Below, piece by piece: positions 4,357 to 47,717 of a stretch of 64,000 bases of DNA. Made by a program: the position numbers and the translations under genes. Origin of the DNA: Candidatus Saccharimonadota bacterium. GTDB taxonomy: Bacteria; Patescibacteriota; Saccharimonadia; Saccharimonadales; UBA4665. A model generated the notes under the pieces. The model did no database searches and was not told where the DNA came from. It saw nothing but the letters and a program-made list of their open reading frames with translations. The stretch covers positions 1-64,000 of the forward strand of contig JAICKC010000001.1 of NCBI GenBank assembly GCA_025928155.1. Direction: 5' to 3'. Within the stretch, counting starts at the first letter, position 1. Each line of letters opens with the position of its first letter.

Positions 4357-5859
4357 ATGGCAAAGTTACCTGCGAATCGGTTCCCCGCTTTATCACTTTC
4401 TCGAATTGCGACGGTACTTGTTGTGGTGTTGTTTGCCGGCATTGGTACATATATTTTGGGCGTGAGTCATGCCTCCGGCAACGCCACCCTGTCGCTCTCA
4501 CCGAGTAACTCTACCGTTGGTTTAGGTTCCACGCTTACTGTGACGATTATCGAAAACAGCGTCACCGTACCGACGAACGCTGTAGAAGCTGACCTCACCT
4601 ATGACCAGACCAAGCTGCAGTTTGTGAGCATCGATACTACTGCCGCCACTACGCCGTTCAGTATTACGGCGAACGCTACGGGCGGCAACGGTACGGTAAA
4701 TATCGCAGTGGCATCCTCGGCCGCACAGACTGGCTCACAGACAGTTGCCAAGGTCACCTTTACGGCAATTGGGACCGGCAGCGCGCCGGTGGCATTTGCT
4801 AACTCCTCGTCAATTATTCAGTCCAGTGATAGTACTGACATAACGGGTACTATGACGGGTGCCACCTATACGGTCGCCGACCAGGCGGCACCATCAGTGC
4901 CGGCGGGTCTTGCGGCCCCGACGCGCACCGCTACTACTATTGCATTAAGCTGGACCGCCGCCACAGATAACGTCGGCGTAACCGGCTACAAGATTTACCG
5001 TGGCGGTACCCAAGTCGGTACTAGCAGTACTACGAACTATACTGACAGTAATCTCACGCCCAGCAATAACTACTCGTACACCGTGGCGGCATACGACGCG
5101 GCAGGTAATACCTCCGCCCAGTCCAGTACGCTGGCTACTAGTACAACGCCGGACACTGCGGCTCCGAGCGTGCCGTCTGGTTTGTTGCTAAGCACCCACA
5201 CCCTGACGAGTATCAAACTCACCTGGACCGCCGCCACAGATAACGTCGGCGTAACCGGCTACAAGATTTACCGGAACGGCACGCAGGTCGCCACCTCACA
5301 GGCCACCAACTACGACGACACTGGTTTGGCTCCGGGCGTCAGCTACAACTACACCGTGGCCGCATATGATGCTGCCGGCAACACCTCGGCGCAGTCAGGC
5401 GTCAGCTCATTCAGCACCCTCGCCGACACTACTGCTCCTAGTGTGCCAGCTGGCCTCGCATCACCAAGTCAGACGGCTACCAGTATCACTCTGAGTTGGA
5501 CCGCTTCAACCGACGATGTCGCGGTTACTGGCTATAAAGTCTACCGCAACGGCACGATCCTAGTTACGACCACCAACACCACTTACACTGACACTGGCCT
5601 CACACCCGGCACTAACTACAGCTACACAGTGGTAGCCTACGATGGGACCGGTAACAACTCGGCGCAGTCAGCTGTCAAATCGGTGAGCACCACCGTGGTA
5701 CAAGGTGACGTGAACGGCGACGGGCACGTGAATATATCAGATCTGAGCATTCTGGCGTCGAGCTGGCAGAGCCGTACGGACTTGCGGGCGGACTTTAACC
5801 ACGACGGTGTGGTAGCGATTGCAGACCTAAGCATAATGGCAGCAAACTGGGGAAAATAG
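4357..5859 (+). CDS. secreted/anchored protein: N-terminal TM, cohesin-like domain, three FN3 domains, C-terminal type I dockerin
   Basis: Cohesin-like LSLSPSNSTVGLGSTLTVTI...EADLTYDQTKLQFVSI; three ~91-aa FN3 repeats; dockerin GDVNGDGHVNISDLSILASSW...ADFNHDGVVAIADLSIMAANW. Confidence 0.85.
   Translation: MAKLPANRFPALSLSRIATVLVVVLFAGIGTYILGVSHASGNATLSLSPSNSTVGLGSTLTVTIIENSVTVPTNAVEADLTYDQTKLQFVSIDTTAATTPFSITANATGGNGTVNIAVASSAAQTGSQTVAKVTFTAIGTGSAPVAFANSSSIIQSSDSTDITGTMTGATYTVADQAAPSVPAGLAAPTRTATTIALSWTAATDNVGVTGYKIYRGGTQVGTSSTTNYTDSNLTPSNNYSYTVAAYDAAGNTSAQSSTLATSTTPDTAAPSVPSGLLLSTHTLTSIKLTWTAATDNVGVTGYKIYRNGTQVATSQATNYDDTGLAPGVSYNYTVAAYDAAGNTSAQSGVSSFSTLADTTAPSVPAGLASPSQTATSITLSWTASTDDVAVTGYKVYRNGTILVTTTNTTYTDTGLTPGTNYSYTVVAYDGTGNNSAQSAVKSVSTTVVQGDVNGDGHVNISDLSILASSWQSRTDLRADFNHDGVVAIADLSIMAANWGK
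4950..5000 (+). repeat. 51-bp perfect direct repeat, copy 1 (within FN3 domain)
   Basis: CTGGACCGCCGCCACAGATAACGTCGGCGTAACCGGCTACAAGATTTACCG identical to 5223-5273, offset 273 bp (91 codons). Confidence 0.95.
5223..5273 (+). repeat. 51-bp perfect direct repeat, copy 2 (within FN3 domain)
   Basis: Identical to 4950-5000. Confidence 0.95.
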
Positions 5860-5860
5860 T

Positions 5861-7027
5861 GTGAAGAAACTCGGAAGCATTTTTGGATTACTTGTTAGCA
5901 TGATAGCGTTAGTCGTGGCACCGACTGCCATGGCGGCCGCTGCCCCAGCTTTGTATTTTGAACAGGCCGACGTTTCAGTGGTTGGCGGCAACGTCAGCTT
6001 ACCGGTGCATGTCAACGCCGCCGGCTCGTCACTCGATACGGTACAGATTGTCGTCACCTTCCCGGCTGATAAGCTTACTTTTGTAGGCCTTGATAAATCG
6101 GGCTCGGGCTTTACAGCCTTTGTGCCGGCTGTTCCTACGGATACGAATGGCCAGGTTACATTTGGTGCCGCCAGCTTTTCTACCAAGGCCAAGCCGGTCG
6201 TAGGTGACGTGCTGGTCGGCACATTACTCTTTACCGCCAAAGCTACGAGTGGTGTAGGAGAAGTGAGCCTCAGCGGTTCGCAGGCCCTGCGCAGCGGCGT
6301 GACGCTTACCGGTACGACCACTAGCGTGGCTACGCTACACTTTGGCGCCGGAAGTACCACCGGCGGCGGTCTCGGCCTCGGCAATGTGGCCGCCACTGAT
6401 ATAACTGTCAACAACACTACAATACGCTGGCACACCGATGTTCCTGCCACCAGTGGCGTGGACTATGGCCAAACAAGCTCTTATGGTGCGAGCGTGGGCT
6501 CGCAGGATCTAGTTACTGACCACCGGGTAAAGATTGGCTCAGTACTACCCGGCGGTACCAAGATACACTACCGGGTCTCTTCGGTGGCGGTTGGCGGCGC
6601 GTATCAGGCGTCAGAAGACAAAGCATTCACCACACTCGGCTATACTGTGGCGATAACGGCACGCGACAAGAGCGGACAGCCACTGAGCGGTGCCAGCGTG
6701 CAAGTGGTAGGCGGCCACAAAGCGAAAGCGAATACGAGCGGTGTAGCGATCATAACGAATGTCGGTCCGGGTGCCCAAAAAGTCGTCATTAATGGCGGCA
6801 AGTCGCAGAGCATCCTGGTAAAAAGTGAGGTGGGCGCGGCAGCTACCAAAGTCCAGCAATTTACGCTTGTCGGTGAGCCCGCGGCATTTCCCATTATTTC
6901 CCTTGTTCTGGCGGTGCTCGTGGCTGCAGCGGTGATAGTGGCGCTCGTGATGCTTATGAAACGCCCTAGCGCTCAGCCAAAGCCGCCTATGGCGCCCACG
7001 ACGCCTGCCTCAACGTTTCATATGTAA
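5861..7027 (+). CDS. cohesin-like domain protein with FN3-like and carboxypeptidase-regulatory-like domains and C-terminal TM anchor
   Basis: Signal peptide; ALYFEQADVSVVGGNVSLPVHVNAAGSSLDTVQIVVTFPADKLTFVGL cohesin-like; C-terminal hydrophobic segment followed by KRPSAQPKPP. Confidence 0.8.
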   Translation: MKKLGSIFGLLVSMIALVVAPTAMAAAAPALYFEQADVSVVGGNVSLPVHVNAAGSSLDTVQIVVTFPADKLTFVGLDKSGSGFTAFVPAVPTDTNGQVTFGAASFSTKAKPVVGDVLVGTLLFTAKATSGVGEVSLSGSQALRSGVTLTGTTTSVATLHFGAGSTTGGGLGLGNVAATDITVNNTTIRWHTDVPATSGVDYGQTSSYGASVGSQDLVTDHRVKIGSVLPGGTKIHYRVSSVAVGGAYQASEDKAFTTLGYTVAITARDKSGQPLSGASVQVVGGHKAKANTSGVAIITNVGPGAQKVVINGGKSQSILVKSEVGAAATKVQQFTLVGEPAAFPIISLVLAVLVAAAVIVALVMLMKRPSAQPKPPMAPTTPASTFHM

Positions 7028-7602: not shown

Positions 7603-8655
7603 CTAGTGGCGCGTGACGGTAAATGACTGGCCGTCCGAGCCAAGCGCAGACGGCACGGCAAGCGGCTGTTGCGCCGCCGACACCAGGGTGACGGGCTGAG
7701 CGTTACCACTTAGGATGGTCATGCTGTTGCCGTTGTCCGTTGCACCGCCGCCAGTGAACGTCACAGGTGCAAAGACATCGAACGCTACCAGATGGCCAAA
7801 AACATTGCTTGGGTCTTCTTCAATCCACTCAACCGACGAATACGACGAAGTATATGCTAAGGCGGTAGTGAATGAATTGCCGGTCGTGTTGTCGGTTATG
7901 GTAACGTTCCAGTGGTCTGCCGATGTTTCGGCAATGCTCGCCTGCATACTGTCGTCTGGTGAGACTGGTAGGCTGGTAATGGTGTGTGCACTCTGCGGCA
8001 GTAGCTCGTAAAAAGCGAAGGAGGTTTGTTTGCCGCTGGTTGACACGCTGTCTATCGTACCTACCTGGATGAGGTCGTCGCTAGTGACGCCACCGATGCC
8101 GATCCAGGCAGTGTCGGCCGATGTCCTACCGGCTACACCGGTGGCATTTGGTACGTTCCATGAGCCGGAAACCGAGGTGTAGTGGCCGGTGGTTGCCAGG
8201 TACCCTGCCCAGTTGGTGGACAGGTAGCTGGTGGTTGTGGCTGGTGTCGAACCCTGAGTGGAAGTGTTGCCGTCGGTTCCTGTAGTGTCAGTGGTAACGG
8301 GCGGCGGTATGGCATCCACTGGGGTGAGGCCATTAACACTGGCGTTCGGGTCGGGTCTGACCACAGGTGCTGGAGTGGCGCTATGAGGCACTACAGCGAG
8401 CGTTGTCGGTTTAGGCGGTGGGACAGCCGGAATTGACGTCGGCAGGGTTGTCTGCGCCGTGGTTGACGTCGGTGGGGTGCTTGGCGTAGCTGCTACGGAT
8501 TTACGGTTCGAAGCGTTTTGCGTTTGAATGGACGATGTGTGGGGTGGGGTCGAAGCAGCATAGCGTGCACCACCGATCAGTATGCCTGTAACGAGTAAGT
8601 ACGCGAGCAATCGCGGCACACTCAAAACTACTCGGGGGGCTTTATGCTTCATCAT
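7603..8655 (-). CDS. secreted G1-family glutamic peptidase (eqolisin-like)
   Basis: STNWAGYLATTGHYTSVSGSWNVP..., TAWIGIGG...DLIQVGTID (Gln), YSSVEWIEEDPS (Glu); N-terminal signal and Pro/Thr-rich linker. Confidence 0.78.
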   Translation of the reverse strand: MMKHKAPRVVLSVPRLLAYLLVTGILIGGARYAASTPPHTSSIQTQNASNRKSVAATPSTPPTSTTAQTTLPTSIPAVPPPKPTTLAVVPHSATPAPVVRPDPNASVNGLTPVDAIPPPVTTDTTGTDGNTSTQGSTPATTTSYLSTNWAGYLATTGHYTSVSGSWNVPNATGVAGRTSADTAWIGIGGVTSDDLIQVGTIDSVSTSGKQTSFAFYELLPQSAHTITSLPVSPDDSMQASIAETSADHWNVTITDNTTGNSFTTALAYTSSYSSVEWIEEDPSNVFGHLVAFDVFAPVTFTGGGATDNGNSMTILSGNAQPVTLVSAAQQPLAVPSALGSDGQSFTVTRH

Positions 8656-9400: not shown

Positions 9401-10336
9401 CTAAGGGTTCAGTGTAGTGATCTGCAGGTCGGTGAAGTCGAAATTGGTGTAGTCGCCGCGTATACCGACGTTGCCGGCAGCGGTAATGGGTGTATAGGAG
9501 GCCGACCGGTAGTGCCCTGGCGTGGTACAGCTTGGCGACCAAGCAGGGTTGGTACCACCCCGGTCGGTACCACTGGCGATCGGCTGGGTAGCGCTCGCGG
9601 CAGTATCGTAAAGGTTGATAGTTACGGACTGGTTAGCATTGGTCTGGATGGTTATGGTGTACTTGCTCCAGACGCCGGGCGTAAAATCGTGCCGGGCGTA
9701 GCTGCCCAGCACGAAGTAGGTGCCGTCGTCGCTGCCGCCGCACGGCACTTTACGCTTGATAACCACTTGGCCGTCTGCGCGATTCAAGCTGACGTAATAG
9801 AGATTGAACGGGTTCTGGTATCTCAGCCAGGCGTGGATACCATACCAGCAGGTGTCGTCTGTATTGCAGCTAGTATTATGAATGTCGATATTCTGTTTGA
9901 GCGAAAGCGACACCTTGATATTGCCCGCGAAACTCTTAACGGTGTTTAGACGAAACACGTCTGAGTCGGTACAGTTGGTACTTAGAGCATTCGGGCCGTC
10001 GCAGGTATCGGGATTGCCGGTCCAGAAGACGTTGCCGTGGGCAAACAGTGAGCCGCTCGTCATGTCCCAGTCAGCTGAAATTACGGCATGGCCGTTGCCG
10101 TGGTTGAAGTGAGCAAACTCATTGGTGATGAGGCCATTTGTTGCGGGTGCGGTGTACGAAGCGAGTATAGCTGAAGTGGTGGGTGGCGGCGTGGCCTTGT
10201 GTTGGCTGGAGTGGTTGCGAGTTTGGGCTGCGGGCTTTGGTCGGTGGTGTATTGAGCTGCCCAGAAGGTAATACAGTAGCAACCCGCATACTACAATAAC
10301 AGCGCCTGCCGTTATAGCCCACCAACGACGCTTCAT
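9401..10336 (-). CDS. membrane-anchored concanavalin A-like lectin/glucanase-fold protein
   Basis: N-terminal TM; beta-rich domain with WYGIHAWLRYQNPFNLYYVSLNRADGQVVIKRK...GVWSKYTITIQ; overlaps upstream gene by ATGA. Confidence 0.65.
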   Translation of the reverse strand: MKRRWWAITAGAVIVVCGLLLYYLLGSSIHHRPKPAAQTRNHSSQHKATPPPTTSAILASYTAPATNGLITNEFAHFNHGNGHAVISADWDMTSGSLFAHGNVFWTGNPDTCDGPNALSTNCTDSDVFRLNTVKSFAGNIKVSLSLKQNIDIHNTSCNTDDTCWYGIHAWLRYQNPFNLYYVSLNRADGQVVIKRKVPCGGSDDGTYFVLGSYARHDFTPGVWSKYTITIQTNANQSVTINLYDTAASATQPIASGTDRGGTNPAWSPSCTTPGHYRSASYTPITAAGNVGIRGDYTNFDFTDLQITTLNP

Positions 10337-12009
10337 GAGGCTACAACACTAATGTCCTGTATGGTAAGGCTTGAAGGGTGTGTGGCGTCGTAGACCGAAA
10401 AGCCTATGCCACCACTTGGTGGCATAGCTGGATCGGTGACTTCGGTCAGCACCTCTCCATTCAGCAGACACTGGATAGTGTGGCCGTGCATGCGCACGCC
10501 AACGGTTTGCGGCTGGTTGACGGCTAAGCCGTCAAGGTCGCTCTCTTGCAGCGTAGTGAACGCACTACCCATGCTGCGGGTAACCGAGAAGTAATTGGCA
10601 CCGAAGTAGCAACCAATGCGATAATCGGCACCTTGTAGGCGCGCCAGCAGTCCGTAGCTGCTCCCTTGATTAAGCGTAACGCGGGCGGTCATAGTGTAGT
10701 CGCTCCAGCCGCTGCTGCCATCGAGTACGGCGCCGGCGCCAGTCTTATCCGTACCACTTGAGCCAATTGTGAGTGTTCCATTTTGTACATCCCCTTTACC
10801 CCAGGCGTACTCCCAGCCGCTGTTGGTCGCTAAGCGATCGTTGTACGGTAGTGGCTTAGCGTCGCCTTGGCCCAAAAATGCTACGAGCCCTTGTCCGTTG
10901 CTCCACAATCCTTGGGTGAGCTGGATGCGATACGCATAGAACTGGTTACTATTATAGTACTCTTGGCTCCGGTCGCGGCCCGGGTAGTACAACATCATGG
11001 CGGCTTTGAACAATCGCTTGGTAGCGGCGGTCAGGACGTTCGGCGCGTTGTGGTAGTTGCTGGAGTCGTTCTCGCCGATGTCGGCGAACGGGAATGCGAA
11101 CAGCGTTGCGGGCTTGCCGGTAAATTGCTCGACCTCGCGCTTGGCGGTCGCCATATCGTTGTAAACGCGGGCGGCGTACTCGGCATCGGTTTCCATGCGG
11201 TGCGAGGCAGACAACCAGAGCTTGTTGGGGTAGAACTCACCCTTCGTGCCATTACTGCTAATGGCGTAGTAGCTGTGGCCGATGTCAGTGTGGGGTTCCA
11301 AATCCCAGTGACCGCTACGCTGCATGGCGTGCAGCTCGATAGCCGATAGGTAGTAGTGTGAACCGGCGAAGTCTTCTATGTTGTATTTCGTGATAACGAA
11401 TTCTGTCGCCCGGAAGCCAAGCGCTGACAACACCGGGTCAACTGGGTAATAACTATCTTTGGTGCCATCGTCAAAAGTAATAAATACCGACTTTGCGGGC
11501 AGCCGTTTCTTGCCCGCGATGAAGTTGGCATAGTCATCGGCTGAGACAGTAGTGTAGCCGGCTTTTTTGAGCGCAAACATCTGGTGCTTGAAGTCGCCAG
11601 GTGTCACATTATATACATCCTTGTCGGTGGCGACGCGGTGATAGAGCAATACCGGCACGGATGTGGCGTAGCCGGCTGGCATCGGTGCAGCCGATACGCG
11701 GTCGGTAAACATGGCATCGCGTACAGCATCGGGACGCGATTCACCGATATAGCGGTTGTAGTCATAGCGGACTCTGTACGTTTCGAAGAAATTGCCGATA
11801 GTTCTGGTGTTATCGAGATTGTAGCTGTAGAGCCAATAGGCGCCGCCGTATATCAGGCCGCAAACGGCCAGTGACAGTGCGACGTAAGCAGCACGGTGCA
11901 CGTACATACGCGTGCGTAAACCGTGCGGCCGCCGGGTGTACAGCCAGCGTGCGCCAAGCTGCAGGTAGGACGGATGGTGGGCGCCAGACGGTACATTCCA
12001 GAGCTTCAT
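10333..12009 (-). CDS. polysaccharide deacetylase with N-terminal TM and C-terminal lectin-like domain
   Basis: VPVLLYHRVATDKDVYNVTPGDFKHQM...SVFITFDDGTKDSYYPV; C-terminal YTMTARVTLNQGSSYGLLARLQGADYRIGCYFG; start chosen at MKLWNVPSG, overlapping GT2 stop (ATGA). Confidence 0.88.
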   Translation of the reverse strand: MKLWNVPSGAHHPSYLQLGARWLYTRRPHGLRTRMYVHRAAYVALSLAVCGLIYGGAYWLYSYNLDNTRTIGNFFETYRVRYDYNRYIGESRPDAVRDAMFTDRVSAAPMPAGYATSVPVLLYHRVATDKDVYNVTPGDFKHQMFALKKAGYTTVSADDYANFIAGKKRLPAKSVFITFDDGTKDSYYPVDPVLSALGFRATEFVITKYNIEDFAGSHYYLSAIELHAMQRSGHWDLEPHTDIGHSYYAISSNGTKGEFYPNKLWLSASHRMETDAEYAARVYNDMATAKREVEQFTGKPATLFAFPFADIGENDSSNYHNAPNVLTAATKRLFKAAMMLYYPGRDRSQEYYNSNQFYAYRIQLTQGLWSNGQGLVAFLGQGDAKPLPYNDRLATNSGWEYAWGKGDVQNGTLTIGSSGTDKTGAGAVLDGSSGWSDYTMTARVTLNQGSSYGLLARLQGADYRIGCYFGANYFSVTRSMGSAFTTLQESDLDGLAVNQPQTVGVRMHGHTIQCLLNGEVLTEVTDPAMPPSGGIGFSVYDATHPSSLTIQDISVVAS

Positions 12010-13391
12010 CGGGTGACCCACTTGCGGTTTTGGATAGTCGCTATGGCATAGAAAAATACAAAAGACAGGAAGATGCTGTTGAACACAGTCCAGAGGAATA
12101 GGTATGGCCAATATTTATTGCTGCGCGAGGAAAATTTGTAAAATACAGTGATGATGGCGGCCAGCAGCAATGCTCCGAACAGATAGTACAGCGGCAGAAT
12201 GTGGCGGACGGCCGGAGAGTACAGCATAGCGCGGACGGCGACGAAGGGCGTGAGCATGCTGACAAGGGTCAGCGGAAAGAAATACGTAAAGGCAATGAAC
12301 GGCCGTTTGCGCCAAATAAATTTACTGGCGAAATAGGCGTTGATGACCCAGCTTTTTTTCCAGCGTGTCTGCTGCTTGAGGAACTGGCGGAGATTGTCGG
12401 GGCAAATGGTATAGGCCTGCACTAAGTCGGTGTAGATGGTCTTGTGGTCAGTCTTGATGAGCCAGTTGGTCAGCGCCCGGTCATCCCCCCAGGTTACTGG
12501 TTGGCCCAGGAAGCGCTCGCCAAGCCAATCATCCATGATAGGCAGGACCGCGCTCTTGCGGTAAGCGGACGAGCAGCCACTGCAACAGAAGACTGACATA
12601 AAGACCGACTCGGCTGCCTTCAGGATGCGGAATGACATAAAGTAGTACGCTGCCTGCATCTTAGTGAGCAGGTTTTGGTCAGCGTTGCTTGGGTCAGCGT
12701 GGGCACAGACGGCGGCGATTTCGGGGTGCGCGAACGGCTTGATGAGGTTGCGGAAGGTGCTCGGTTCGATGTAGCTGTCGCTGTCGAGTTGGATAACGAT
12801 TTCGCCGCGAGCCCGGCGGAAGCCTTCAACCATGCCCGGGCGCTTGCCGCGATTGACTTTCCACGAAACTATCGTCAGGCGCTTCTCGTATTCCTTTTTA
12901 AGTGTACGCACTATGTCTTCGGTGCCGTCGGTGCCACCATCGTTAATGAAGACGACGTCGAGCTTATCGGCCGGATAATCGGCCGCGAAACACATACGTA
13001 TGGTGTTTTCGATGGCCTCCTCCTCGTTCTTACATGGAATCACGAAGGTTACGAGTGGCTCGTACGCCTCCTCTTGTCTTGCTGCCAGGATGTTGTCGGC
13101 GTGTCGCATGACTTTGTTGATGGAGTTGCGGTACAACGTGGCGGCCAGTACGCGGGTGAGCTCAAAAGTAGTGACGAATACCGAATACGCAATCAGCCAC
13201 TGGTTCTCGTGGTTGGCGTAAAGCGTTTTGGCTTTGATGGCGGCTAGGATGAGCAGAAGTGTGATGCCGACTAGGAGGAGGAAACCGTAATAGCTGAAAG
13301 CACTCAAGAAGTTTCGGAAGCGCTCAAAACGACGCAATACGGCATCGTCTGCCGGCTCACTAAGCACATTCTCTGCTGCACCTTGCTGCAC
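12006..13391 (-). CDS. processive GT2 glycosyltransferase (HasA/NodC/IcaA-like)
   Basis: VTFVIPCKNEEEAIENTI, LDSDS, TWGDDRALTNWLI, QQTRWKKSW; flanking TMs; SD AGGAG before GTG start. Confidence 0.92.
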   Translation of the reverse strand: MQQGAAENVLSEPADDAVLRRFERFRNFLSAFSYYGFLLLVGITLLLILAAIKAKTLYANHENQWLIAYSVFVTTFELTRVLAATLYRNSINKVMRHADNILAARQEEAYEPLVTFVIPCKNEEEAIENTIRMCFAADYPADKLDVVFINDGGTDGTEDIVRTLKKEYEKRLTIVSWKVNRGKRPGMVEGFRRARGEIVIQLDSDSYIEPSTFRNLIKPFAHPEIAAVCAHADPSNADQNLLTKMQAAYYFMSFRILKAAESVFMSVFCCSGCSSAYRKSAVLPIMDDWLGERFLGQPVTWGDDRALTNWLIKTDHKTIYTDLVQAYTICPDNLRQFLKQQTRWKKSWVINAYFASKFIWRKRPFIAFTYFFPLTLVSMLTPFVAVRAMLYSPAVRHILPLYYLFGALLLAAIITVFYKFSSRSNKYWPYLFLWTVFNSIFLSFVFFYAIATIQNRKWVTR

Positions 13392-28055: not shown

Positions 28056-30461
28056 TCACTCTCCAAACGGCGCGGAGTGCTGCGTGTCGATGGAGCGAAT
28101 GCGCTGTTTTTCGCGGTCAAAATAGAGTTCTACGCCGCCGGTGGGGCCGTTACGGTGCTTCTTGATGAGTACGTCCATGAGGTTTTGGCGCTCAGACTCA
28201 GGGTTGTAGTAATCTTCGCGGTACAGAAAAGCTACGACGTCGGCATCCTGCTCGATACTTCCCGATTCGCGGAGGTCGGCCAGCTGCGGGATTTGCGGGC
28301 TGCGGTTTTCGACCGAACGGCTGAGCTGACTCAGCGCAATGAGCGGCACGTTGAGCTCGCGGGCGACACCCTTGAGCCCGCGAGAAATTTCGCTGATTTC
28401 CTGCACTCGGTTGCCCTCACTGGCATAACGGCCACCACCGCTCATGAGTTGCAGGTAGTCGACGATGACGAGTCCGAGCCTCTGGGTGTGAGCCTCGCGC
28501 CGGGCCTTGGTGCGCAGGTCGCTTACGGTAATACCGGGCGTGTCATCGATGTAAATTTTAGCCTCGCTGAGCGTGCCCATGGCTTCAGCCAACTTCTCAA
28601 AGTCGTTATCAGTCAGATTGCCGGTGCGCAGCGCCCAGGCATCGACACCCGACTCCATGGCGAGCAGGCGGTCAACCAATTGCTCCTTGCTCATTTCCAG
28701 GCTGAAGATCAGTACCGGCTCTTTGGCCTGGGTGGCGACCTTGTGCGCCAGGTTAAGCACGAAGGCAGTGTTATGGGTCACGATAAAGTCGTTGGTAATG
28801 TACAGCTGCGAGGCGTGCGACACAGAGATGCATTGGGTTTCGGTTTTGCGGGTCGGGGTAATTGATGTAAACGTTAGCCGTTTACTGCGCGTGAAAGTAC
28901 GGGTGCGAGCGCGTTTCTCTGGTAATGAGAACAGCGTGTGAGGCTGCGGATGCGCAATGCAGACGACGTACGAGGGCTGGCCGATCTTGCGCATACCGCG
29001 GTATGTGAAGCTGGTTTGCTTGGGATTCACGCTGCACCAGGCGCCCAGCGACCGGGCAAGCGTGACGACATCGCGGGCGAGCTGTTCGCTGGAGGTAGCA
29101 AAGCGGACGGTGCCAAAGGTTTCAGCCCAGCCGTCAGCGTCGAGCAGGCCTTGGAGCAGGTTCAGCCGACTATCGTAGTCCGCTTCCAGATACTGCTTGG
29201 GTATGAATTTTTCAGTGCTGTGCTTGCCCCATAACCCTAGTGTCCTGAGTTGTGCGCGTAACGGGCTGAGCAGAGTTCCGGCCACGCCATGCCGCACCGA
29301 AGGGGCCGTCTGCACTACACGGTGGTCGTAGCTGCCGGCGTGATTGAGCGTATAGTCTGGGTCTAGTTCTGTATCCAGCCGTTCCAGCATATGCGGGCTG
29401 GCAGTCGAAAAGCGCACACCATTTAGATCACCTTTGCCGATCAAAGCGCCGAGTGCCCACGGAGCAATCGGTAGGTTATAGTGGTTCTCTGTCTTGCCAC
29501 CAAACACGCCACCAAACATGTCAATCCATAGGCGGCCCTGGTAGGCTTTCTTGGTCAGCATCTCGGCTACCCTATTGGTGGTTAGAACCCGCGGCTTGTC
29601 CCATGCTCGGTAGTAGACAGTCCACAAATGCTCGGCGCTGAATTCGCCGCTGCGGCCGTCGGAAAAGCTGACGCGGTAGACTTGCTCGACACCTTGTGGA
29701 AAGACACCGGTCACCCTTGATGGTTTACTGTCTACGGAGGCGAGCGTATCGCCGACCTTGAGTTTGCCCATGTGTTTCCAGCCCGCAGCGGTCAGGACCT
29801 GAGCGTCGAGTGGCTGCGCCTTGCCCATCGCCGGGCGGGCGGCCAAGATGAACAGATCGCTGCGCTGCAAGCCGGCCAGCATGTTATCGAGGTCTTTGTA
29901 ACCGGTAGGTATGCCGCGTAACTTCGCCTTGTCCTTGTGCAGGTCATCGAGCCGCTCGAAACTCTCGGCCAAAATGTTTTCGAGGCTTACGACATCTTGC
30001 TTGACATGCTGCTGGCTGACCTCGAATAGCCGGGTTTCCGCTTCCTCGATCAACTCTTTGAGCGACTTGGATTCATCTTGCCCAAGTATCGCCATATCGC
30101 CGGCGGCGGCAATCAGGCGGCGGCGCAGCGCCTTTTGGGCGACGATGTCGGCGTACTGCTCCACGTGTGCAGCGGTTGGCACGTAGTTGGTAAGCTCGGT
30201 TAAGTATGCCGGGCCGCCGACCATGTCTAAAAAACCCGTGCCTTTGAGCTGGTCGGCCAGGGTTAATACGTCGATTTGGGAGCGCTTTTCGTAGAGTGCG
30301 ACCAGGGCCTCGTAAATACGGGCGTGACGTTGGTCGTAGAAATCCTGGACACTAAGGGCGTCGGCAATTTTTACAATAGCGTCGGTGTCGATCAGGATTG
30401 CGCCAAGTAGGGACGCTTCGGCGTCGGTGTTTTGCGGTGGGGCTGCGACGTGCTGTGCCAT
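28056..30461 (-). CDS. dnaB: replicative DNA helicase DnaB interrupted by an intein in the P-loop
   Basis: N-domain PQNTDAEASLLGAIL; AARPAMGK / intein / TAFVLNLAH; FSLEMSKEQL; LVIVDYLQLM; DLRESGSIEQDADVV. Confidence 0.97.
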   Translation of the reverse strand: MAQHVAAPPQNTDAEASLLGAILIDTDAIVKIADALSVQDFYDQRHARIYEALVALYEKRSQIDVLTLADQLKGTGFLDMVGGPAYLTELTNYVPTAAHVEQYADIVAQKALRRRLIAAAGDMAILGQDESKSLKELIEEAETRLFEVSQQHVKQDVVSLENILAESFERLDDLHKDKAKLRGIPTGYKDLDNMLAGLQRSDLFILAARPAMGKAQPLDAQVLTAAGWKHMGKLKVGDTLASVDSKPSRVTGVFPQGVEQVYRVSFSDGRSGEFSAEHLWTVYYRAWDKPRVLTTNRVAEMLTKKAYQGRLWIDMFGGVFGGKTENHYNLPIAPWALGALIGKGDLNGVRFSTASPHMLERLDTELDPDYTLNHAGSYDHRVVQTAPSVRHGVAGTLLSPLRAQLRTLGLWGKHSTEKFIPKQYLEADYDSRLNLLQGLLDADGWAETFGTVRFATSSEQLARDVVTLARSLGAWCSVNPKQTSFTYRGMRKIGQPSYVVCIAHPQPHTLFSLPEKRARTRTFTRSKRLTFTSITPTRKTETQCISVSHASQLYITNDFIVTHNTAFVLNLAHKVATQAKEPVLIFSLEMSKEQLVDRLLAMESGVDAWALRTGNLTDNDFEKLAEAMGTLSEAKIYIDDTPGITVSDLRTKARREAHTQRLGLVIVDYLQLMSGGGRYASEGNRVQEISEISRGLKGVARELNVPLIALSQLSRSVENRSPQIPQLADLRESGSIEQDADVVAFLYREDYYNPESERQNLMDVLIKKHRNGPTGGVELYFDREKQRIRSIDTQHSAPFGE
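28770..29819 (-). other. intein within DnaB (350 aa, Ala1...His-Asn / Thr+1; class 3 WCT features, LAGLIDADG domain)
   Basis: Starts AQPLDAQVLTAAGWKHMGKLKVGDTL after GK; ends SVSHASQLYITNDFIVTHN before T; LAGLIDADG-like WALGALIGKGDL and LLQGLLDADG. Confidence 0.93.
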
Positions 30462-44065: not shown

Positions 44066-44101
44066 TCAGGGTGGCTGCCCGTAGCTCTGTAACGCATCTG
44101 C

Positions 44102-44131
44102 TTGACAGCAGCCGTGTAATGCCGAATAATC
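44102..44131 (+). promoter_or_regulatory. putative promoter of first tandem paralog
   Basis: TTGACA-N18-ATAATC. Confidence 0.6.
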
Positions 44132-44163
44132 TCGGACAATACAGAAAAGTCAGAGAGGAATGT

Positions 44164-45075
44164 ATGAAGTTATCTATTCGTGTGCGTCTGTTGTTACCGG
44201 TGCTTGCCCTGGTGGCGGTTGCTGGCATCGGGGCTCGTTTTCCTAAAACGAGCTATGCGGCTACTACTGCACAGACAACCTGCCGTGTGTACAGTTTTTC
44301 CGCATCGGGAACGACGAACCATGGCGGCACTAACATATCGACATCTGGATGTGTAAAGTATATCCAGCAGATCGTAAACGGTGCCTATCAGGTGTCTAAA
44401 ACTCAAGACAAGGGTACGCATACGCCCATCGGCAACTACGCTAAAATCGCTGATCAGTATGCTAAAGCGGACAGAGTGCCAGCAGGGTTATTAGCTGTCG
44501 ACGGCAAGTTCGGCACGGTTACCGCCAGCCGTGTCCGGGCATTCCAGGCAACGTTCCAGTACTATAGCGCACCTACCGGACAGTATATAGACTTGACCTC
44601 TGATGGGGTTATCGGCGGCCAGTCATGGGGTGCACTGTGCGGTTTGGCGTTGCGATTTCCTGATCCCCACGTGGATGCAGATTATCAAACAAATACTACG
44701 GCGCAATCCGCCAACAATGCCGCACACAAGATGGCATCCGGCTGCAATGTAAAGGACCCAAATAATGGCATCAGAGCACACGCCCATGTGCAGTCCTATG
44801 TTACCGCTAAGCCTAAGGTCGCCGTGGCCTACTCTTGTGCTAACGTCGGCAAATTTGCAGCCGCTGTAGAAGGCAAACTCGGCGACAGTAAATATTCCGG
44901 TGTGCCGGAACAGCAGGCATTTCCCAAGTGCTTCGGCATACACAACCAGCCATCCGCAACCTATGCCTGCTCGAACGTCGCTAACTATGAGAGTTTCGCC
45001 TACTCGGCGTACGGCCCGGTAAGTTACGCTAAGCTAATTCCGGTCATTAAGGCCTACTTCCCGGCTTGCTCCTAG
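44164..45075 (+). CDS. secreted protein with peptidoglycan-binding-like domain (tandem paralog 1)
   Basis: Signal anchor KLSIRVRLLLPVLALVAVAGIG; VDGKFGTVTASRVRAFQATFQYY; SD GAGAGGA. Confidence 0.8.
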   Translation: MKLSIRVRLLLPVLALVAVAGIGARFPKTSYAATTAQTTCRVYSFSASGTTNHGGTNISTSGCVKYIQQIVNGAYQVSKTQDKGTHTPIGNYAKIADQYAKADRVPAGLLAVDGKFGTVTASRVRAFQATFQYYSAPTGQYIDLTSDGVIGGQSWGALCGLALRFPDPHVDADYQTNTTAQSANNAAHKMASGCNVKDPNNGIRAHAHVQSYVTAKPKVAVAYSCANVGKFAAAVEGKLGDSKYSGVPEQQAFPKCFGIHNQPSATYACSNVANYESFAYSAYGPVSYAKLIPVIKAYFPACS

Positions 45076-45093
45076 AGGGTGACCGTGCTTTGC

Positions 45094-45124
45094 TTGACAG
45101 GGACAATTGATTTAATCGATAATC
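45094..45124 (+). promoter_or_regulatory. putative promoter of second tandem paralog
   Basis: TTGACA-N18-GATAAT. Confidence 0.6.
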
Positions 45125-45167
45125 ACAAGCAATATCAGGCAGCGTTTTGCGGCGCAGAAAAGGAGAT

Positions 45168-46595
45168 GTGAAGCTGCTTCCTCCACGCCAACCGACCGAG
45201 CATGGGTTTAGCTTACACTTTGTGCTGCCTATTATCGCAATCGTGGGCGCGGCTGCCATCGGTACCTACTTAATTAGGGGGACGCATGCGGCGACGACGG
45301 GCTGTGTGTCCTATGCATATGACTTCAAAGCTCAGACCCTGACCCTCCCGGAGTCGTCGACCCCGACGAAAGACGTCAAGGCTACCAACAGCAACTTTGG
45401 TCCATGCCTCGGCTACATCGAGCGTATGCTAAATATTGCCTATGCGACGAACTATGCAGGTTTTGCGGTGTACGCTGACGGATTTAAGGACACGGCGCCT
45501 GCAACCGTCACGGTTAAAGGTTATATCGGTCTCTCGAGTCCCTCTGTGTACAGCCTGAGCGTGGATGGTAAATATAGCGCTAACCTATTGAACCGAGTGC
45601 ATGCGTTCCAGAATTTCTTTGCGTACGGCGCGACAGACGCCGCGATTGACAGCCGTCTGGCGCCGTACAAGAGTGGAACAACGTGGAGTCCGTCTACGGC
45701 GCAGCTCGCATTGTGCGGCATTGCCGAGCACACCACCAGCACTATGAACAACATGGCCAGCGATGCAGTCGGCCTGGCGTTGCACTATGGCTGCCCGACG
45801 GGAGTCGGTTTGCCGACCTGGCGGTCGAATATAAAGTCGGTTGAAAAGCCGCCGGTAGTGTCGACGACTCTAGCGTGTGCCGCTAATGGTACAGGGGGCG
45901 TTAAATTTAGTTTTAGCGACCCCAATGGTGTCACCACCGCGCAGTTGACTGTTACCTACGCTTCGGGAGTATCACCTGCGACGGCGACAACAAGCTATAG
46001 TGCACCCAGCTCTGCGCTGGCGACGAATACGGTATCGATTGCTGCAGCCAAAGTGGCCGGAACATGGAGCGCCAAACTCGTCGCTGCCGACTTGTGGGGT
46101 ACGCAAACCAAGTCAGTGACGACGAGCCATGCGACATGCAAGCCTGCCACAATACCATCAGTCAGCGGAGGAAGTACTGGCGGCAGTAGTAGTTCCGGTG
46201 TCGCTGCCGGGTGTGCCGACATATCAGACTCGAGCTGTTTTCCGAGCTACCAAGACCCCTGTACTGCGGATCCATCGTCCTGTGCCTCTGACCCGGATCA
46301 GTACGACACGATCTGCGATACTAGCTGCTACGATACTAGCAGCGACGGTAGTAGCCTTTTTTCATCTGACGGATCAGATTCTTCCGACCTCAGCGGCCTT
46401 GGCTCGGGCTGTACCGATACGTGTGAGGGGTCATCAACTACGGACAGCAGCGGATCGGGCGACAGTACGGGAACGGCCGGCGGCAACAGCGCCCTCCCGA
46501 GGAGTGGCAAAGTCTCAAGTTCCGAAAAGAAATCTGCCAACATCGTAGCGCGCTTCTTCCGTGGCGTCCGGTCGGCACTCGACAAGCTCTTCTAG
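45168..46595 (+). CDS. secreted protein with peptidoglycan-binding-like domain and Cys/Ser/Asp-rich tail (tandem paralog 2)
   Basis: Signal anchor; LSVDGKYSANLLNRVHAFQNFFAYG; tail GCADISDSSCFPSYQDPCTADPSSCASDPDQYDTICDTSCYDTSSDGSS; GTG start after AAAAGGAGAT (ORF track start 45147). Confidence 0.75.
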   Translation: MKLLPPRQPTEHGFSLHFVLPIIAIVGAAAIGTYLIRGTHAATTGCVSYAYDFKAQTLTLPESSTPTKDVKATNSNFGPCLGYIERMLNIAYATNYAGFAVYADGFKDTAPATVTVKGYIGLSSPSVYSLSVDGKYSANLLNRVHAFQNFFAYGATDAAIDSRLAPYKSGTTWSPSTAQLALCGIAEHTTSTMNNMASDAVGLALHYGCPTGVGLPTWRSNIKSVEKPPVVSTTLACAANGTGGVKFSFSDPNGVTTAQLTVTYASGVSPATATTSYSAPSSALATNTVSIAAAKVAGTWSAKLVAADLWGTQTKSVTTSHATCKPATIPSVSGGSTGGSSSSGVAAGCADISDSSCFPSYQDPCTADPSSCASDPDQYDTICDTSCYDTSSDGSSLFSSDGSDSSDLSGLGSGCTDTCEGSSTTDSSGSGDSTGTAGGNSALPRSGKVSSSEKKSANIVARFFRGVRSALDKLF

Positions 46596-46633
46596 GCGTT
46601 CGACATTTGTTGCGTTATGCACAGCATTTTCAC

Positions 46634-46663
46634 TTGACGTTACCTGTCGATTCCCGAATAATC
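46634..46663 (+). promoter_or_regulatory. putative promoter of third tandem paralog
   Basis: TTGACG-N18-ATAATC. Confidence 0.6.
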
Positions 46664-46697
46664 ATAAACACTATCAGGGTAACCACGAAAGGAATAT

Positions 46698-47717
46698 ATG
46701 GGGTTATTCAAACTAAGGAGACTGGACCAAACTGGGTTTCACGTCCATCTGCTGTTGCCGGTGTTGGCCATAATAGCGGTTGGCGGAATTGGCAGCTACC
46801 TGCTGAGCCAGAGTCACGCTGACTCACTGCCGACCACCACGTGCCGGGACTACAAGTTCGCTACTAGTGGTGTGACGGGTAAGGCAAGCGGCAAGAACAC
46901 CATAGCTACTAGCGCCTGTGTTGGCTACATACAGACTATGCTGAATGGTGCCTATCAGGCCGCAGCAGACACGAAGGACAACACAAACTTGGGTGGTTAC
47001 GCTGCCGTCGCAAACACCTACGCCAAGGTGAACGGTGTCGTGAACGGTACCTTAAGGGTCGACAACTCGTTCGGTTCTGCAACGGCCAGCCGTGTGCGGG
47101 CGTTCCAAGCGACCTACCAGTACTACAACACAAGCACCAAGAAGTATGTAGATTTGCCTATAAACGGGACCGTGGACACGAACACTTGGGCTGCGCTCTG
47201 TGGCCTTTCTTTGCGGCTGAATAAGGCAGATAAAGGCTACAAGAATCACTCGACAGCTCAGCAAGCTCTGAATGATGCCAATAAAACCGTATTGGGTTGC
47301 CGGGTGAAAGGCAATGCTAACGTAAAAGTCCACCCTCACGTTCCTGCATCTGTTGTAAGCGCGGCTAAGGGCGGTAGTACTACAACAACCGCGGGTGGTG
47401 GCCGAGGTGCCGGCGGAGGTGGGGTGTCCGCAGTAGCATCGGTAAGTATGGCAGCAAGTCCGCAGACGATTACCCAAGGACAGTCTACCCGCCTCTCTTG
47501 GGTAGTGCAGAATGCCAGTCTGTGTCAGATGACTGGAGGGGCTGGTTGGAGTGGCACGATGAGGGTCGACACTATGCTCAAGGGTAGCGGCATACAAGAT
47601 GTTACACCGTCGAGTACAACCACTTTCCGCCTTACATGTAATGGGCTCGGCTCGGATGGAACTAAGACTACGACCGCTTCGGTTACTGTAACGGTCGTAC
47701 CACACGGCGCTTTATAG
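46698..47717 (+). CDS. secreted protein with peptidoglycan-binding-like domain, Gly linker and Ig-like domain (tandem paralog 3)
   Basis: Signal anchor LHVHLLLPVLAIIAVGGIG-type; VDNSFGSATASRVRAFQATYQYY; Ig-like VSMAASPQTITQGQSTRLSWVVQNASLCQMTGGAGWSG. Confidence 0.8.
   Translation: MGLFKLRRLDQTGFHVHLLLPVLAIIAVGGIGSYLLSQSHADSLPTTTCRDYKFATSGVTGKASGKNTIATSACVGYIQTMLNGAYQAAADTKDNTNLGGYAAVANTYAKVNGVVNGTLRVDNSFGSATASRVRAFQATYQYYNTSTKKYVDLPINGTVDTNTWAALCGLSLRLNKADKGYKNHSTAQQALNDANKTVLGCRVKGNANVKVHPHVPASVVSAAKGGSTTTTAGGGRGAGGGGVSAVASVSMAASPQTITQGQSTRLSWVVQNASLCQMTGGAGWSGTMRVDTMLKGSGIQDVTPSSTTTFRLTCNGLGSDGTKTTTASVTVTVVPHGAL

Follow-up and report, generated by a model that had tools for sequence, protein, structure and literature searches.

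Archaeoglobus fulgidus, an archaeon for which no cellulose degradation is known, has a small non-cellulosomal cohesin–dockerin pair, reportedly described by Bayer in 1999 and by Voronov-Goldman in 2011 (2xdh). In ANME archaea, also outside the cellulose degraders, scaffoldin-like proteins combine a single dockerin with as many as five cohesins (PMC9012536), and non-cellulosomal cohesin–dockerin pairs are already known from Clostridium perfringens as well as from archaea (titles of PDB entries; PMC9012536). Within the Saccharibacteria, SEML1_0315 of Southlakia epibionticum is a cell-envelope dockerin protein that is essential in epibiont Tn-seq, and its authors speculate on host glycans (PMC10633639). 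In the literature searched this is the sole Saccharibacteria dockerin case, with no cohesin partner described in the available part of that report (PMC10633639), and other publications may exist. A main open question about the Saccharibacteria, whose surface proteins are mostly unannotated, is how they attach to their host cells and exploit them.

The gene pair considered here lies in a 64,000-nucleotide stretch of DNA from a Candidatus Saccharimonadota bacterium (the window; contig 26 of a 1.30-Mb assembly in 33 contigs), and we infer that it is probably a reduced cohesin–dockerin docking module on the Candidatus Saccharibacteria cell surface. The cysteinyl-tRNA synthetase of this genome comes nearest, at 75% identity, to those of Candidatus Saccharibacteria MAGs. 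Gene 1 (4357..5859, +; 500 aa, ATG start, stop TAG at 5857–5859) encodes an adaptor-type protein, gene 2 (5861..7027, +; 388 aa, GTG start) a membrane-anchored cohesin protein, and the spacer between them is 1 nt. An earlier note, made from the sequence alone, had given the same coordinates, order and spacer, which a check of the open reading frames found to be exact. It had also described gene 1 as a TM segment, a cohesin-like domain, three FN3 modules and a C-terminal dockerin with two calcium loops, and gene 2 as a cohesin-like domain, FN3-like modules and a C-terminal TM; both descriptions were borne out, the first by domain searches, and the second by the AF2 fold and TM helix and by a leave-out profile.

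Gene 1 begins with a hydrophobic helix in the AF2 model (residues 14–32; 4396..4452, +), which may be a cleaved signal peptide or a permanent TM anchor. The domain that follows (about residues 37–177; 4465..4887, +) scores 29.8 bits against PF00963 in a whole-genome search, over the curated cut-off of 24.1, and 93 bits (1e-30) against a family profile from which both window genes were excluded; the family profile itself matches PDB cohesins. A plain hmmscan with Pfam did not detect this domain, probably owing to HMMER filters. The AF2 model of this region is of moderate confidence. Structure searches with the whole of gene 1 were swamped by FN3 matches, so that the identification of the first domain as a cohesin rests on sequence. 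Three chitinase A1-like FN3 modules (about residues 176–447; 4882..5697, +; fn3 at 1.5e-28 in three stretches, 47% identity to 1k85) separate it from a type I dockerin (residues 447–500; 5695..5856, +), modeled by AF2 as two helices with pLDDT of about 90 and scoring 31.5–36.7 bits against Dockerin_1 (PF00404; cut-off 22.9). Sequence and alignment place two F-hand calcium loops in it, DVNGDGHVNISD (residues 451–462; 5707..5742, +) and DFNHDGVVAIAD (residues 479–490; 5791..5826, +). Both loops keep the ligands at positions 1, 3, 5 and 12, and position 9 is Asn in loop 1 and Ala in loop 2. Carrying a cohesin and a dockerin on one chain, as adaptor scaffoldins do, gene 1 is best read, by its domain architecture, as a candidate adaptor.

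Gene 2 starts with a signal peptide (residues 1–25; 5861..5935, +), seen as an N-terminal hydrophobic helix. Its AF2 model (mean pLDDT 79.5, from 18 sequences) gives residues 25–164 (5933..6352, +) the cohesin jelly-roll fold: this region matches about 40 PDB cohesin entries with Z of 11–16.5 and rmsd mostly of 2–3 Å, the best being C. perfringens 2vo8 (Z 16.5, rmsd 2.4 Å over 132 residues), and it also matches A. fulgidus 2xdh (Z 14.5). An unrelated Ig fold, which the earlier note had named as the result that would count against its reading, was looked for and is ruled out for this domain by the match to PDB cohesins. The family profile that excludes both window genes scores the domain at 69 bits (5e-23). 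A Pfam search with the gene 2 cohesin alone gave no match; PF00963 matches 11 of the 18 proteins in the gene 2 family alignment (best 9e-13). A joint cohesin family profile searched against the PDB returned 17 matches at E < 0.01, almost exclusively cohesins (16 of the 17 are chains from cohesin entries), in keeping with the cohesin identity that the earlier note had proposed. The first domain of gene 2 is therefore, as modeled, a cohesin. It is followed by an FN3-like or purple-acid-phosphatase-N-like domain (6365..6643, +; FN3 chains align with residues 169–261, and Pur_ac_phosph_N occurs in 6 of 18 relatives), a CarboxypepD_reg-like domain (6647..6868, +; PF13620 at 2.4e-4, below the Pfam cut-off in gene 2, with matches in 12 of 18 family members), and a C-terminal TM helix in the AF2 model (residues 343–367; 6887..6961, +) with a 21-aa tail. 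Of the 76 cohesin-only relatives that are complete, 66 likewise have a C-terminal TM. Gene 2 thus combines a cohesin with a cell-surface anchor, as anchoring scaffoldins do, the anchor being a TM helix rather than an SLH or sortase element; its best reading is that of a cohesin socket fixed in the membrane. A search with gene 2 against the contig collection found no relative.

The arrangement recurs widely. Across 80 relatives, dockerin genes repeatedly adjoin relatives of gene 2, and a survey of 294 genomes of the order found both domains in 57, cohesin only in 21, dockerin only in 26 and neither in 190, a co-occurrence odds ratio of 19.8 uncorrected for phylogeny. Cohesin and dockerin lie no more than 3 kb apart in 53 of the 57 genomes with both, and 68 of 145 dockerin matches fall within 3 kb of a cohesin, against a chance expectation of about 2.4. 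Of 286 genomes sampled across the phylum, 68 hold both domains (odds ratio 8.6), which lie close together in at least 29, among the places compared. Reading the loci gene by gene yielded 81 proteins with cohesin alone, 91 with dockerin alone and 15 with both. Unlike genes adjoin in 59 pairs from 50 genomes, arranged in tandem (in either order), convergently or divergently; several convergent pairs with small intervening ORFs or slightly wider gaps were left out of this count, so that the adjacency numbers are low rather than high. Tandem pairs are tight (gap of at most 20 nt in 48 of 51; 27 overlap). The order seen in the window, adaptor then anchor, was found seven times, and three-gene operons of cargo, adaptor and anchor occur in G109 and G098. 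An N-terminal signal or TM segment is present in 80 of the 91 dockerin-only proteins and a C-terminal TM in none of them. Since the pair recurs in 50 genomes, it is real and not a chance adjacency, and a conserved membrane cohesin beside dockerin genes in that many genomes provides a definite hypothesis on partners that can be put to the test, the group including a genetically tractable species. Two further genomes belong to the same genus: in G001 a dockerin/anchor pair is present and no gene-1-type adaptor was seen, and in G002 (87% complete) neither cohesin nor dockerin was found. The counts also bear on whether each dockerin might simply close back on a cohesin within the same chain, acting as a calcium-dependent fold or switch, so that separate proteins would not dock with each other. 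Both domains do occur together in gene 1 and in 14 other surveyed proteins, and three FN3 modules could serve as a flexible linker; however, 91 of 106 dockerin proteins lack a cohesin, and about half of those 91 sit, by the count, immediately next to a cohesin gene, which makes closure in cis highly improbable.

As a separate observation, in genomes of family f34 that have dockerins but in which a cohesin could not be detected, a small secreted protein comes after the dockerin protein; it is Ig-like (Big_2-like) and ends in a TM segment (L103:5295-6770, L104:3979-5031, L108:4816-5418, L109:4360-4968). Possibly these Ig-like TM proteins are a different socket; as candidate divergent cohesins they gave 11% and 62% in hhalign.

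Relatives also show what such dockerins can carry. Dockerin proteins linked to cohesin genes are mostly Ig/FN3 stalks, with a polysaccharide deacetylase in 8 of 48, and unlinked dockerin proteins include GH25, GH16, GH5 and GH26 members, subtilases, phosphoesterases and beta-helices. One genome, G041, has seven dockerin-tagged enzymes and one linked Ig/FN3 dockerin protein, counts to be taken with care because its assembly is 86% complete and in about 170 contigs. Three of the 15 gene-1-type proteins have a scaffoldin-like architecture of 3–4 cohesins and one dockerin (L141:4396-7398, L147:3979-6981, L150:2816-6400); they belong to G026, G174 and G193, all of one genus and with genomes of about 1 Mb, and only there among the relatives was a multi-cohesin primary scaffoldin found. 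In these three genomes the scaffold's dockerin is unlike the shared cargo dockerin class, a split that resembles, by analogy, the type I/type II division of cellulosomes. A fixed split of this kind, with adaptor cohesins forming one clade, found no support: the tree requires 14 changes of label, of which at least 5 are forced.

Co-divergence provided a further line of evidence. Cohesin and dockerin distances across 23 genomes correlate with r of 0.60, and 0.59 once the distance between cysteinyl-tRNA synthetases (CysRS) is removed. Over 45 pairs of cohesin and neighbouring dockerin the correlation is 0.55, and the partial r with the rest of the anchor protein removed is 0.45 (p=0.0003, the smallest value that the permutations allow); conversely, the rest of the anchor protein against the dockerin, with the cohesin removed, gives 0.08 (p=0.11). 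These two partial tests make it less likely that linkage or phylogeny by itself explains the co-divergence, because neither linkage nor co-transfer predicts a difference between domains within one protein, although noisier alignment of the remainder of the anchor protein could contribute to that difference. Insofar as dockerins co-diverge specifically with the cohesin domain, and adjacency persists through changed gene order and orientation, the results argue against passive adhesin stalks, in which Ig-like, FN3 and dockerin-fold modules would merely extend or stiffen two surface proteins without mutual pairing. We regard such stalks as quite unlikely, even given that FN3 and Ig modules dominate, that many linked dockerin proteins have solely Big_7/fn3 repeats, and that the gene 2 cohesin stands far apart from other cohesins, on an end branch of 1.33 in the tree. 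The earlier note's proposal that the dockerin docks onto a cohesin is favoured by the conserved adjacency and the co-divergence, from which we infer binding.

Within this genome, matching by co-divergence did not discriminate among cohesins and did not favour gene 2 as partner: the window dockerin tracks the gene 2 cohesin weakly (r 0.20, p 0.18), its own cohesin at 0.42 and the cohesin on contig 5 at 0.50. That it tracks its own cohesin better than that of gene 2 would suit a self-assembling fibre, in which gene 1, having both halves, polymerizes head to tail by plugging its dockerin into the next copy's cohesin, and gene 2 anchors the end of the chain in the membrane. In G109 and G098 the adaptor cohesin and the anchor cohesin from the same operon are sisters, so that one dockerin could fit both. 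In the window, however, the two cohesins are 22% identical and are not sisters on the tree, and the distinct scaffold dockerins of G026, G174 and G193 are as expected of two-tier systems rather than polymers; a fibre is accordingly unlikely. That the gene 1 dockerin binds specifically the gene 2 cohesin is a finely balanced proposition, to which we lean slightly against committing.

The rest of the genome bears on the earlier note's picture of a system far smaller than a cellulosome, with no catalytic partner in the pair. A genome-wide dockerin search revealed two full dockerin proteins beyond the window (on contigs 28 and 5), making three in all, and one half-dockerin on contig 23; there are three cohesins, one per gene, two in the window and one on contig 5. 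Contig 5 carries a cohesin-TM gene and, convergent to it at a distance of about 1.1 kb with a single ORF in the interval, the gene for an 801-aa dockerin protein (beta-helix, FN3, Big_7); the contig 28 dockerin protein carries FN3/Big_7. A glycoside hydrolase domain was sought in the dockerin proteins of this genome and none matched (FN3, Big_7 and beta-helix only). The pair is not alone, and relatives have catalytic dockerin cargo; for these reasons it is more aptly viewed as supplying a docking platform with its anchor and its adaptor. Likewise, no multi-cohesin primary scaffoldin was found among this genome's three cohesin genes, all of them single-cohesin, and with both a multi-cohesin scaffold and wall-degrading cargo sought and not found, the system of this genome is not a conventional cellulosome.

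The contig 23 half-dockerin (near 70172-70237; L119:4164-4442, −) is a 92-aa protein with a TM segment and a single dockerin calcium repeat, encoded among phage-like genes (RusA, DNA methyltransferase, phrog_6791); a search against a viral collection found no relative, and a virus-borne half-dockerin could plug host cohesins. Near the pair, the window encodes a secreted Peptidase_A4 (glutamic peptidase) domain (7603-8655, −; 8.8e-31) and a polysaccharide deacetylase with a 3-keto-disaccharide hydrolase-like domain and no dockerin (10333-12111, −), an enzyme type that can be dockerin-tagged in relatives. Three successive secreted proteins (44071-47717, +) share the gene 1-style N-terminus (hydrophobic, G-I-G or similar, HA end), perhaps a lineage-specific signal, and a putative replicative DNA helicase ORF (28056-30461, −) is, at 801 aa, above the usual length, with an intein or insertion possible.

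In the docking model, gene 2 would be the socket, its cohesin displayed outside the membrane and held by the C-terminal TM, and gene 1 the adaptor, its C-terminal dockerin plugging with calcium into a cohesin, most simply that of gene 2. The gene 1 cohesin, placed before the FN3 stalk, would then offer a second socket, and other secreted dockerin-ended proteins, such as the beta-helix protein of contig 5 and the FN3/Big_7 protein of contig 28, could be clipped on as cargo, possibly for contact with a host or with glycans. The role in adhesion or host attachment that the earlier note put forward is likewise a possibility. Counted against this model are the weak tracking between the gene 1 dockerin and gene 2 cohesin, the Ala at position 9 of loop 2, and the gaps in G001 and G002; moreover, gene 1 may be kept in the membrane by its own N-terminal helix, making docking unnecessary for anchoring. 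More broadly, ultrasmall epibiont-type Patescibacteria might widely use an exchangeable membrane cohesin–dockerin plug and socket to hold host-contact proteins as well as enzymes (deacetylases, subtilases, GH25, GH16), including the essential dockerin protein of S. epibionticum, a generalization that we consider possible yet doubtful.

Compared with described systems, the locus draws on the same cohesin and dockerin families as the clostridial cellulosomes with anchoring and adaptor scaffoldins (Acetivibrio, Ruminococcus ScaE/ScaH; PMC12484212). It shares with them an anchored cohesin, a cohesin-plus-dockerin adaptor and dockerin-tagged cargo, along with scaffolds of 3–4 cohesins and two dockerin classes in some relatives, and differs in having one cohesin per protein in this genome, anchoring by a TM helix rather than by SLH or sortase, no GH matched among the dockerin proteins of this genome, and a genome of 1.3 Mb (PMC12484212). 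The noncellulosomal cohesins and dockerins of C. perfringens (NagJ 2jh2/2w1n, GH33 2vo8, dockerin complex 2ozn) are the nearest solved folds to the gene 2 cohesin (Z 16) and share the cohesin–FN3 order and non-cellulosomal use; their cohesins reside on secreted glycosidases, whereas that of gene 2 is on a membrane anchor beside a dockerin gene. The A. fulgidus pair is likewise small and non-cellulosomal, though archaeal, and the ANME systems differ in their cargo of ABC-transporter binding proteins and S-layer proteins (PMC9012536). SEML1_0315 is, as here, a Saccharibacteria dockerin protein, with no cohesin partner mentioned in the available part of its report (PMC10633639). By analogy, the present system would work like a reduced scaffoldin system, its parts being members of the cohesin and dockerin families, and would extend cohesin–dockerin assembly to genomes of about 1 Mb.
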